Positions 13,892-18,281 of a stretch of DNA of 64,000 bases are shown in pieces. Position numbers and translations under genes: made by a program. The stretch lies in the NCBI RefSeq assembly GCF_900070205.1, contig NZ_FAOO01000012.1:1-64000 (forward strand), read 5' to 3'. The DNA comes from Candidatus Thermokryptus mobilis (GTDB taxonomy: Bacteria; Bacteroidota; Ignavibacteria; Kryptoniales; Kryptoniaceae). The notes beneath the pieces are model-generated. The model searched no databases. It saw only the letters and a list, made by a program, of their open reading frames with translations, and was not told the DNA's origin. The first letter of the stretch is position 1. Each line of letters starts with the position of its first letter.

Positions 13892-14434
13892 TTATCTATA
13901 AAACACCCTTAAACCGAACTGCAAATATCTTGGCGCATATGAACTATTTGGCTGTCCAAAATTAGCTAAAGGATTTCCACTGGCATCATACATACGATTA
14001 AAGTAACCCGCTGCGTTAAACCAATTGAAAACATTAAAGGCATCAAAAATTAAAGCAATTCTATAATAGCCAAATTCAAATACCTTACTCAACCTTATAT
14101 CAACTATCTTATACCAATACCTGACTTTCCTCCAATCAAGCGTCCAAATACGCGTATCGCCTGGCCAATCATCTCCATAGAAATTATTATCATTCAAATC
14201 TCTGCCATCAATTACATTAAATGGTCTGGGCGAAGCCAAAGTTGCTATTCCACTGAATTGGAAACCAAATGGCAAATTAACAATCCAATTTAAAACAAAA
14301 CGATGTCTTTCATCTGCACTGCTCCTTTGCATCCTATAGCTTGATGCAAAAGGATATGCCGGTGGGGTCACGCCATCAAAATCTGAATAAGCCCAAGATA
14401 AAGTGTATGACAATTGCAAAGTATAACTTTGCGT
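13892..14434 (-). pseudogene. TonB-dependent receptor, C-terminal barrel remnant
   Basis: Only about the last 180 residues of a TonB-dependent outer membrane receptor are present. The sequence has barrel strands (LQLSYTLSWAYSDFDG, HRFVLNWIVNLPFGFQFSG, YRIALIFDAFNVFNW) and ends in an aromatic-rich strand, LQFGLRVFYR. Full receptors have about 900 residues with a plug and signal peptide, none of which is here. In frame, a TGA at 14435-14437 closes the frame upstream; the first possible start codon is a TTG at 14419. The fragment keeps its terminator. I read it as a decayed gene cut at the 5' end. Confidence 0.75.
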
Positions 14435-14454: not shown

Positions 14455-14483
14455 TTGACTTTTTACACATCCTTTATTATATT
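14455..14483 (+). promoter_or_regulatory. Sigma-70 promoter of the apbE operon
   Basis: TTGACT (14455-14460), exactly 17 bases, TATATT (14478-14483). Transcription would start near 14490, about 25 bases before the apbE ATG, inside the palindrome described separately. Confidence 0.7.
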
Positions 14484-14486
14484 TTA

Positions 14487-14503
14487 TTTAGATTAAATCT
14501 AAA
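14487..14503. promoter_or_regulatory. Palindromic operator, DtxR/SirR-like
   Basis: TTTAGATT (14487-14494), one A, AATCTAAA (14496-14503): a perfect 8-bp dyad just downstream of the -10 box, so a bound protein would block initiation. The TTTAG...CTAAA outline resembles boxes of the DtxR/SirR/MntR family of iron or manganese repressors; that assignment is by resemblance only. Confidence 0.55.
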
Positions 14504-14514
14504 TTAATAAAACG

Positions 14515-15420
14515 ATGCTAAAACTTTTCGCAATTTTGCAACTTATATCGCTGATATTACCACCGCCACAAGGAAAAAGCTATTATCTAATGGGAACATA
14601 CTCATACATTGAGATGCCAAGCGCGGACCTTAACAAAAAAGCATACAAAATCCTGCACGACATTGAAACAAAACTTTCAGATTATATTGACTCGTCCGAG
14701 GTCTCAAGGATAAACGCAAATGCAGGAAAAAACTTCCTAAAGGTTTCAAGTATAACAATGGAAATGATAAAAAAAGCAATTGAAGTGTCAGAGAAAAGCT
14801 TTGGGTATTTTGACATAACAATCGGTGCCCTGACGATAAACGCTAAAAGGTTGAAAAAAATTGACGAATTTAGAGCAAAAGAACTTGTTAACTTCAAAGA
14901 TATATTAATAAAAGGAGATAGTGTGATGCTTAAAAGAGAGAACATGGCGATTGACCCTGGAGGCATAGGCAAAGGATTCGCAATTGAAATGTGTTACAAG
15001 AAACTTAACTCAAAGAAAGGTTTCATCTCAATTGGCGGTGATATGAAAATATGGGGACATAAAAGAACGATAGCTGTGAGAGACCCAAGAAATGGCACAT
15101 CATTGGTTCAAATGGTTAATTCAAAAGATGTTAGCATCTCCACATCGGGAAATTATTTGAGAAAGCACATTGAGACGCCAGAAGATGATGTGCTTCAAGT
15201 GACCGTTGCACATGAAGATGGAGGATTTGCTGATGCTTATTCAACCGCAATCTTTGCGATGCCAGAAAAAATGAGAAGAAAATTTATTGAAGATAACCCG
15301 GATGTTGGAGTCTTAATCGTCTACAAAGATGGCTCAATCTTTATTAACAAAAGGTTTATGGAATTTTTTGAAATCTTGCTCTTCAAAACAAATTCGGAAA
15401 AACAAAGGAGGAAAAATTAA
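14515..15420 (+). CDS. apbE: FAD:protein FMN transferase ApbE
   Basis: 301 residues with an N-terminal hydrophobic export signal (1-16). Family motifs are present: MGT at 26-28, AIDPGGIGKGFAI (145-157) for FAD binding, SISTSGNY (207-214), and ADAYSTA (239-245), which supplies the Mg2+ ligands. ApbE attaches FMN covalently to Thr of S/TGAT motifs in exported flavoproteins. The FMN-binding protein two genes downstream carries just such a motif, so it is the likely substrate. No Shine-Dalgarno sequence is evident at this start. It is slightly short for the family (usually 320-350). The porin gene begins 2 bases after the stop. Confidence 0.92.
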   Translation: MLKLFAILQLISLILPPPQGKSYYLMGTYSYIEMPSADLNKKAYKILHDIETKLSDYIDSSEVSRINANAGKNFLKVSSITMEMIKKAIEVSEKSFGYFDITIGALTINAKRLKKIDEFRAKELVNFKDILIKGDSVMLKRENMAIDPGGIGKGFAIEMCYKKLNSKKGFISIGGDMKIWGHKRTIAVRDPRNGTSLVQMVNSKDVSISTSGNYLRKHIETPEDDVLQVTVAHEDGGFADAYSTAIFAMPEKMRRKFIEDNPDVGVLIVYKDGSIFINKRFMEFFEILLFKTNSEKQRRKN

Positions 15421-15422
15421 CC

Positions 15423-16763
15423 ATGATTAAGAAATTAATGTTGATCGCATTAACACCACTTCTATTACTCTCACAAACGCAAGAGGAAAAGATAAAGCAA
15501 CTTGAGGAAAAAATTAAAAAACTTGAAATGCAGATATCACAATTTCAAATTCAATCCGAAGAAACACAAAGATTGCGCCAAGAAATTGAAGCAATTAAAG
15601 AAGAAATCAGACAATTGCGCCTTGAGGTGGCAATGCCAGAGATAGAATTGAAATCATACTTCGGACTTGGTCCAGCAGCTTCAAAAATTTATTACACTCC
15701 CAGAGGTCTTTCAATAGCTGGTTACGGTGAAATTACATATGAGAATTTCCTTGATAATTCAAAAACTGACAGAGGGGATGTCCTGCGCTTTATCCCCTAT
15801 ATCGGTTATAAGTTCTCGGATAAAATCCTTGTTAATTCAGAACTTGAAATTGAACACGCTGGAATTGGTAATGTCGCAAGTAGGAAACCAGAAGTTTATG
15901 TTGAATTTTTGTATGTTGATTTCATTTTGAGTTCAAAATTTAACCTCAGAACAGGTTTATTTCTCGTCCCTTCAAGTAGAATGAACGAATATCACGAACC
16001 GCCGGTTTTCTTCGGGACATTGAGACCTGATGTTGAAAGATTCATAATTCCAACCGTTTGGAGAGAAATTGGAATTATGGCTTATGGAGATATACTTAAC
16101 GGGCTGTCTTACAAGCTTGGAATTATGAACGGATTGAGAACTGATTTGATCACAACTTGGATCTCTGATGGAAGACAAAGAGGTGCTACTGTTAACTTTG
16201 ATAAATTTGCGGGTGTGTTGAGATTTGATTTATCAGGTATAAAGAATCTTAACATAGGCACTTCTTTCTATTATGGTGGAGGAAGCGATAAAGCTGGAGC
16301 TGAACAAAAAGGAAATGAAAGCGCACTGTTTAGATTGTGGCTACTTGAGGCTCAATATCAGATTGGAAATGCATCGGTCAAAGGTCTTTATGCACTTGGT
16401 AGCGCTTCTGGAAATTCATCTTACACCTCAAAAACACGCTCCAAACTCGTTTACGGTTTTTATGTTGAAGCGGGTTATAATATCATTCCATTGCTTTACC
16501 CTGAATCAATCGTCTCCCTTTCCCCATTTATCAGATATGAAAGATACGATTTAAATCGTGATGTCTTCACAGGTAATGCCGATCCATCTAAAAACAGAAG
16601 TGTTCTAACGCTTGGAATTGACTTCAAACCCCATCCTCAAGTTGTTTTGAAAATGGACTATCAAATTCGCAACACGATGTCAAATTTACAAGTCGGGAAA
16701 GGAACAGGATTAGATGAGTGGAAAATTGATCAGTTCAACTTGGGGCTCGGCTTCATATTTTAA
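15423..16763 (+). CDS. Outer membrane porin with N-terminal coiled coil (OprO/OprP-like)
   Basis: 446 residues: signal peptide (1-18), a Glu/Lys-rich coiled coil (about 20-72), then about 370 residues of alternating, aromatic-girdled strands ending in GLGFIF, a terminal Phe typical of outer membrane barrels. The coiled coil plus barrel plan matches the phosphate-selective porin O/P group and other Gram-negative trimeric porins. GGAGG lies before the ATG. It is flanked by apbE and an FMN-binding protein gene, so it probably serves the same process, perhaps as the route by which a substrate enters or electrons or a small acceptor pass the outer membrane. The substrate is not known. Confidence 0.75.
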   Translation: MIKKLMLIALTPLLLLSQTQEEKIKQLEEKIKKLEMQISQFQIQSEETQRLRQEIEAIKEEIRQLRLEVAMPEIELKSYFGLGPAASKIYYTPRGLSIAGYGEITYENFLDNSKTDRGDVLRFIPYIGYKFSDKILVNSELEIEHAGIGNVASRKPEVYVEFLYVDFILSSKFNLRTGLFLVPSSRMNEYHEPPVFFGTLRPDVERFIIPTVWREIGIMAYGDILNGLSYKLGIMNGLRTDLITTWISDGRQRGATVNFDKFAGVLRFDLSGIKNLNIGTSFYYGGGSDKAGAEQKGNESALFRLWLLEAQYQIGNASVKGLYALGSASGNSSYTSKTRSKLVYGFYVEAGYNIIPLLYPESIVSLSPFIRYERYDLNRDVFTGNADPSKNRSVLTLGIDFKPHPQVVLKMDYQIRNTMSNLQVGKGTGLDEWKIDQFNLGLGFIF

Positions 16764-16786: not shown

Positions 16787-16813
16787 CCGCCTGGGATTCC
16801 CCAGGCGGTTTTT
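16787..16813 (+). terminator. Terminator after the porin gene
   Basis: CCGCCTGGG (16787-16795) pairs with CCCAGGCGG (16800-16808), followed by TTTTT. It lies between the porin and the FMN-binding gene, so the downstream genes may be read through at a lower level. Confidence 0.85.
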
Positions 16814-16833: not shown

Positions 16834-17340
16834 ATGTCAACCCTTTTATTAACTTTTCTACTTTTTCAAATCGGGAAACCAGAAAAGATTTTAAATGAAA
16901 TTTACCCCAACTCCAAAATTGAGATAAAAAATATCGTCCTTTCTGAAACGCAAAAAAATAAGGTTAAAGAACTCTCCGGGGTTGAAATTGAAGGCAAGCT
17001 CGTAACATTTTACCTTGTCAAATTTAACGATCAAGTCAAATTTTACGGTTTCGTAGATGTGCATATCGTTAGGACTCTACCAGAGGTTGTGCTTTATGTT
17101 TTAAATGATAGAGGTGAAATTGAATTAATTCAAATTCTCTCTTTTAAAGAACCGCCCGAATACAAAGCAGATGATAACTGGTTGAAATATCTGAAAGGCA
17201 AAACACTTGGTAAAAATCTTTTGCGTTTGCGCCGAGATGTCCCAAACATGACCGGTGCAACACTTACAGCAAAAGCGATAACCGACAATGCAAGAAAAGT
17301 CATCGCACTTTGGAAAGTGATTTTTGGTGAAGTGAGATGA
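16834..17340 (+). CDS. Exported FMN-binding domain protein (flavinylation substrate)
   Basis: 168 residues with a short N-terminal hydrophobic segment (1-12). The C-terminal half is an FMN-binding domain like those of RnfG, NqrC and NosR; MTGATLTAKAI (139-149) is the flavinylation motif with Thr143 the predicted FMN acceptor. The N-terminal part (20-100) has strands typical of the domain. It should carry covalent FMN outside the cytoplasm. It overlaps the next gene by 4 bases (ATGA), so the 8-TM protein is very likely its membrane partner. No rnf or nqr genes are nearby, so it is not part of those complexes. Confidence 0.85.
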   Translation: MSTLLLTFLLFQIGKPEKILNEIYPNSKIEIKNIVLSETQKNKVKELSGVEIEGKLVTFYLVKFNDQVKFYGFVDVHIVRTLPEVVLYVLNDRGEIELIQILSFKEPPEYKADDNWLKYLKGKTLGKNLLRLRRDVPNMTGATLTAKAITDNARKVIALWKVIFGEVR

Positions 17341-18281
17341 GATTCTTTTGGACTGGAAACTTAAAAAATCCAAAGCCAATTGGTTTTGCTTTGGCTTTTT
17401 TCATCCTTTTCCTTATTCTATTCTGGATTGGAAATTTTGTTAACTTTTGGTTCAAGTTTGAATTTTCAGTTGAAAAGATCGGCAATTATCTTTTCGGTGA
17501 GCCAGATTTCCCATTGAAAATTTCACCAGCGCAAGTTCTGGAAGAAGCGCACATAAACTTATTCGTCATCGGAATTTTATTTTTATGTCTTTCAGCTTTG
17601 TTAATTTACTCACAACTAAAAGATAGAGCAAAAATATATCTTATCGCTTCCACCAGCGTCTCTGGAATTATTTACATTTTTATTGATCTTTTAATTTTAT
17701 CCCTTGGGCGGGAATTTTCATGGCTGAAAATTTTCGCGTTTTCGCTTTTCCAATTAGTAATATTAATTGCCTTAATAATCATTATAACCTTTCCAAAACT
17801 TGACAACAGAAATGGGAAAAAATTTATCGCCTATATCGTCTTCATCTTCGCAATCTTAAATTTAATCTTCGTTGTGATAAACCTTTTCGTCTATTCAGAG
17901 AAGATCGGTCTTTCAATTTCACAAACAGGTGATTATTATTTGGGTAATCCTCAAAAACTCATAAAGCAAAAATCAATTCAAGGCGCAATTTCAATCTCAC
18001 AGCTTCATTTCCTGCCGATGGCGATTTACATTTTAACATTAGCCCATTTCATTTATCTTGTTAACGAAAAATTTAACCTCAGCCTCACACTTCTTCTTTT
18101 TTCAATGTCTTTAATTGACAACATATCGGGAATTTTAATTTTATACTTCGGTAAGGTCTTTGCGGTTGTCAAATTTATTTCCTTTCTCTCCTTGGAATTC
18201 CTTCTCTTTGTGTCATCATTATTAATCATTTTAAAGATGATAAGTTCAAAGTTCAACTTCCCCAATCGCGGGCGTATCTGA
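17337..18281 (+). CDS. 8-TM membrane protein with internal duplication, partner of the FMN-binding protein
   Basis: 314 residues with eight membrane segments at about 14-38, 71-92, 100-123, 130-151, 161-186, 218-241, 247-271 and 278-300. The two halves resemble each other: the loop [12 protein letters not shown] (46-57) matches [19 protein letters not shown] (188-206), each followed by a His at the start of the next helix (His72, His224; also His237). TM3-4 and TM7-8 also align by eye. I do not recognise a named family. Coupled translation with the flavinylated protein suggests it moves electrons between quinone, haem or another donor and FMN; the histidines could be ligands. It overlaps the convergent nadE by 29 bases. 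Confidence 0.7.

Follow-up and report, generated by a model that had tools for sequence, protein, structure and literature searches.

The operators of Fur-family repressors are 7-1-7 inverted repeats, and the consensus sequences of Fur and PerR differ in the half-site's second base, which is G for Fur and T for PerR (the PerR box being TTATAATnATTATAA). In Bacillus subtilis, the choice between the PerR and the Fur box is set by a residue of the recognition helix, Asn in PerR and Arg in Fur, and the Fur consensus varies with this recognition residue (PMC8638851). Within the Bacteroidota, PgFur of Porphyromonas fails to bind the E. coli Fur box (PMC6613475); a literature text search found no published Fur motif for this phylum, which does not prove absence. 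Flavinylation gene clusters have already been linked to iron assimilation, with some of them repressed by Fur (PMC8238504). Here we describe a palindrome within a 64,000-nucleotide stretch of the Candidatus Thermokryptus mobilis genome (the window), situated directly before an operon with a predicted role in flavin-dependent electron transfer, and compare it with these systems.

The palindrome at the apbE promoter

Upstream of apbE, a -35 hexamer TTGACT (14455-14460, forward strand) and a -10 hexamer TATATT (14478-14483, forward strand) are separated by a spacer of 17 bases; CTTGACTTTT is found in all six genus orthologues, and TTATATT is likewise conserved in the genus. Three bases past TATATT and 5' of the ATG at 14515 lies TTTAGATTAAATCTAAA (14487-14503). 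Promoter and palindrome are located as the original prediction had stated, and the perfect repeat is in fact 19 bp, one base longer on each side. This candidate Fur operator reads ATTTAGATT-A-AATCTAAAT at 14486-14504, with a 7-1-7 core TTAGATT-A-AATCTAA at 14488-14502. Since the -10 hexamer ends at 14483, the predicted transcription start falls within the left arm of the palindrome. On the reverse strand, a short open reading frame (13892-14419) matches only positions 623-725 of 838, the C-terminal part, of the outer-membrane barrel family PF25183. Its 5' end stops just short of the apbE promoter, and it looks like a truncated receptor gene.

By count alone, the palindrome is unremarkable in the window: odd palindromes number two at an arm length of 9 bases or more (0.4 expected) and five at 8 or more (1.7 expected). 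As such palindromes are not rare in this AT-rich window, the case for an operator was built on conservation and on the location of other copies. The family comparison set consisted of seven genomes, including Candidatus Thermokryptus sp. RSWP10; part of the genomes used throughout the analysis are metagenome-assembled. Orthologues of apbE occur in six of the seven genus genomes, and the site is kept in all six that have the gene. It is identical in five of them, and the G006 site reads TTTAGACTGAGTCTAAA, a symmetric change that preserves the palindrome. Across the six genomes the 19 bp show 97% identity, compared with 62% for the 30 bases downstream. The operon of apbE, OMP (an outer-membrane protein), FMN_bind and membrane protein genes is intact in all six, with a variable upstream neighbourhood.

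The 17-mer occurs three times in the 2.42 Mb genome when up to two mismatches are allowed, a number not above that of the reversed-pattern control (3 vs 5). The sole other copy with one mismatch, at C3:135385-135401, lies 18 bp upstream of the ATG of a Fur-family gene (C3, 134911-135366), which is followed by a FeoA-like reading frame and then by FeoB, forming a fur-feoA-feoB operon. A genome scan proposed along with the original prediction has thus turned up another occurrence near metal genes. The fur site is kept in 6/6 genomes, as TTTAGATTAAATTTAAA or close to it. The copy with two mismatches (C3:178290) sits 5' of an unremarkable coiled-coil gene; in the assembly, a long stretch of N breaks the reading frame by this third, weak match (L007:4330-5303, G000 C3). 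A broader pattern, matched across the genus with one mismatch, gave no excess over its reversed-pattern control, so that a large regulon is not supported and our claim is confined to the apbE and fur sites.

The box beyond the genus and the Fur-family proteins

We sampled 29 fur homologues from the phylum and derived expectations from dinucleotide-keeping shuffles. The box TTAGAnTnAnTCTAA was present within one mismatch before eight of the 29 fur genes (0.08 expected from the shuffles, maximum 2) and within two mismatches before 13 (0.9 expected), although part of the phylum counts, here and below, is non-independent, as shuffling preserves dinucleotides and ignores relatedness (L126 and L128, for example, are close relatives). 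The E. coli-type box TGATAATnATTATCA, an E. coli/B. subtilis consensus that characterises the classical box but not all Fur operators, matched 0/29 of these fur promoters, even within two mismatches. The palindrome is therefore not of the classical type, and we propose it as a lineage variant of the Fur operator.

Five distant genomes of the class yielded one or two matches each to the 17-mer at one mismatch; four of these six matches are at fur-feo and one lies ~30 bp before a TonB receptor. Searching 11 distant genomes for the exact 19-mer gave five matches, compared with zero for the controls. Three lie at fur-feo genes or at the flavin module, one precedes napD-napA-like genes, and the remaining one has no obvious iron gene downstream. 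In G421, an exact 19-bp box (L153:1501-1519) stands directly before napD-like and periplasmic nitrate-reductase-like genes, where Fur control of an iron-rich nitrate-reductase-like enzyme is possible.

The genome encodes two Fur-family proteins (PF01475; 113 and 88 bits), of which that on C3 is nearest to Fur structures and that on C8 is nearest to PerR. The C8 gene is grouped with genes for rubrerythrin, an Fe-S protein and a Dps-like ferritin, and the promoter of this operon carries a box, TAGTAATnrTTATCA, that is unlike the apbE box and is kept with small changes in 6/6 genus genomes. Judged by gene content and box, the rubrerythrin/ferritin/PerR-like operon represents a second, distinct Fur-family circuit. 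Its box (L008:1257-1271, G000 C8; also L062-L066) comes after a TTGACA/TATATT promoter. The recognition helix has Asn in the C3 Fur (ATVYNTL) and Arg in the C8 protein (GTVYRNL), and on sequence TTAGATT would fit the Asn-type C3 Fur and the TGATAAT-like box the Arg-type C8 protein. PgFur also appears to carry Asn at the same place of the recognition helix as the C3 Fur.

The flavin operon and its link to FeoB

The operon behind the palindrome comprises four genes on the forward strand. The product of apbE (14515-15420) is an exported FAD:protein FMN transferase (Pfam PF02424, E = 2.3e-43). Next comes OMP (15423-16763), annotated as an outer-membrane beta-barrel protein with an N-terminal coiled coil on the basis of a weak OMP_b-brl match and the conserved operon; a distant homologue matches Porin_O_P. 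A strong GC-rich hairpin followed by a T run (16787-16808, forward strand) separates OMP from the FMN_bind gene and is a possible attenuator or internal or partial terminator. The small exported FMN_bind protein (16834-17340; PF04205, E = 3.2e-6) contains a candidate flavinylation motif, TGATLT, that is invariant in the alignment, and this protein is likely the substrate of ApbE. The operon thus encodes both the transferase and a target with a candidate flavinylation motif.

The fourth gene (17337-18281) encodes a polytopic membrane protein in which alignment shows two tandem 4-helix repeats. The 4-helix unit is a tandem duplication here and a single-unit gene in family f4. His72, His224 and His237 are invariant, with H224 and H237 spaced 13 apart, and neither Pfam nor NCBIfam gave a match to the protein. 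It is a candidate haem-b transmembrane electron carrier, a reading that draws on the three His residues and on a low-confidence structure model (pLDDT 62). The model of OMP is also weak (pLDDT 50). A fold search of the PDB with these weak models of the membrane protein and OMP found no match, nor did a PDB sequence search with OMP.

Homologues of OMP are present in 56/396 genomes of the phylum, often adjoining FMN_bind, four-helix and ApbE genes. At 27 such module loci, all from outside the genus and f4, the scan covered the 260 bases that precede the OMP match. Sixteen loci had the box within one mismatch (0.13 expected, maximum 2), and the other 11 had no box within one mismatch in this interval. 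In three f4 genomes the gene order is FeoB, OMP, FMN_bind, four-helix protein and ApbE, with an additional barrel gene in the module of one, and the f4 genomes have no TTAGA box near the module. Aligned over its full length, their FeoB is 51-53% identical to that of the window genome, compared with 31-42% (in part from fragments) for the remaining FeoBs of the class, and on this measure it belongs to the same subtype as the window genome's. The module is therefore linked to the iron transporter in two ways, through the operator that it has in common with feoB in the genus and through adjacency to FeoB in the three f4 genomes.

Taking these observations together, the palindrome is very probably the operator of the C3 Fur of this genome, and the flavin operon probably encodes an iron reductase that partners FeoB. 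Fur-type regulation of the flavin operon is strongly supported by sequence comparison, and the identity of the operator, its partner site, their conservation and the linkage of the module to FeoB are likewise well supported. The f4 modules without a TTAGA box nearby, and the 11 phylum loci lacking one within one mismatch before OMP, weigh against this reading. For the functional half of this reading (Fur binding, repression and its direction, the covalent flavin, the haem and the iron acceptor), we would express moderate confidence. When iron is ample, Fur-Fe(II) dimers would occupy TTAGATT-n-AATCTAA over the start site, blocking RNA polymerase both at fur-feoA-feoB, in autoregulation, and at the apbE-OMP-FMN_bind-membrane protein operon; when iron is scarce, both operons would be switched on. 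ApbE would then attach FMN to the exported FMN_bind protein. Quinol would probably feed the inner-membrane protein, itself probably a haem-b protein, and the FMN_bind protein would pass its electrons to Fe(III) in the envelope. The outer-membrane barrel may admit iron or an iron carrier, and the Fe(II) produced would enter via FeoB. Ferric iron respiration has been proposed for Kryptonia (PMC4737851), and would be a different use for such a module.

Competing readings and comparison with described systems

Several other readings of the palindrome were weighed. The original prediction had taken it for a DtxR/SirR-type metal box, for which its TTTAG/CTAAA outline is the only argument. The DtxR C-terminal domain, PF02742, is absent from the genome in a search that was positive in 11/14 control genomes; of the weak PF01325 matches that were scanned, the genome's own falls short of the cut-off and is a Crp-type protein, and one in a relative is an Lrp/AsnC-type protein. 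Because this genome, at 97.5% completeness, lacks the DtxR family, a DtxR/SirR/MntR box is refuted here and retains next to no probability; the regulators found are the two Fur-family proteins, with the box preceding fur-feoA-feoB. Nothing found points to the predicted link with manganese. The other part of the prediction, a repressor-type operator over the start site that would act as an iron-scarcity switch, stands, and agrees well with a box common to the apbE operon and fur-feoA-feoB. It is equally hard to credit a leader RNA hairpin or a chance palindrome. The unexceptional number of palindromes in the window would allow for either, and G-U pairs at the fur site would be tolerable in RNA, but the hairpin is unstable at 60 °C, as it is in a transcript beginning at about 14490, and the habitat of these hot-spring Kryptonia is at about 70 °C (PMC4737851). 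As it is conserved in the genus and has a second copy directly before fur, the palindrome is more than chance, and the conservation and partner sites exclude that explanation.

The chief rivals are the PerR-like paralogue as regulator and iron sparing as function. The C8 paralogue could also bind the apbE palindrome and, were it the protein that reads this site, the operon would be tied to peroxide and not to iron. The 7-1-7 inverted-repeat layout is common to Fur and PerR boxes, and the PerR box TTATAATnATTATAA is roughly as close to the palindrome as the Fur box. However, the paralogue's rubrerythrin/Dps-like ferritin operon has a box of its own in 6/6 genomes and the TTAGA box tracks fur-feo genes across the class, so that we consider this quite improbable. 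Iron sparing would keep the Fur operator and give the operon another role, in which flavin carriers replace haem or Fe-S carriers during shortage and the electron acceptor is respiratory or other, and not Fe(III) for uptake. This is the general proposal of Meheust et al. for flavinylated systems (PMC8238504) and is equally compatible with Fur control. The f4 module nevertheless directly adjoins FeoB, which there shares its subtype with the co-regulated one, and the membrane protein of the operon itself looks haem-binding, making iron sparing an unlikely, though not negligible, alternative.

Extending the preferred reading, Fur control of a FeoB-partnered iron reductase, to the phylum, we lean towards the view that the Bacteroidota-type Fur (ATVYN/S helix) has its own operator, TTAGAnTnAnTCTAA, and controls a phylum-wide, unnamed flavin-based iron reductase that works with FeoB. 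Its proposed components are the outer-membrane barrel, the FMN_bind protein, the 4-helix membrane protein and ApbE. This would provide a concrete predicted Fur recognition sequence for a large phylum, and could explain why Porphyromonas Fur fails on the E. coli Fur box (PMC6613475). An unannotated flavin operon would become a candidate iron-uptake reductase partnering FeoB, and a single palindrome in raw sequence would have led to an iron circuit of two operons, conserved in a lineage from hot springs.

The arrangement resembles Fur operators with fur/feo autoregulation in having the same 7-1-7 repeat over the start site and a second site before fur-feoA-feoB. It differs from them in its box and recognition residue: the classical Fur box, TGATAATnATTATCA, goes with Arg in the recognition helix, whereas here TTAGAnTnAnTCTAA goes with Asn. 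In this it is like B. subtilis PerR and the PerR box, which likewise combine T, instead of G, in the half-site's second position with Asn in the recognition helix. Unlike B. subtilis PerR, the context here is ferrous iron uptake, and a separate PerR-like paralogue (rubrerythrin, ferritin) has another box.

The DUF4405/FezC cytochromes associated with flavinylation (PMC10979944) resemble the 4-helix protein here in being small, multi-helix and membrane-bound, in their paired His and in their proximity to flavinylated proteins and iron transport; the 4-helix protein differs in having no Pfam match. The flavinylation-associated clusters for assimilatory iron reductases (PepSY-like, MsrQ-like, P19) combine ApbE, FMN_bind and a membrane electron carrier with iron genes (Meheust et al. 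2021, PMC8238504). The module described here additionally includes FeoB, an outer-membrane barrel and an unnamed 4-helix protein, and the words 'FeoB' and 'porin' are absent from the main text of that study. As Fur-repressed flavinylated iron clusters are known, the present case is a variant of them and not a new kind.
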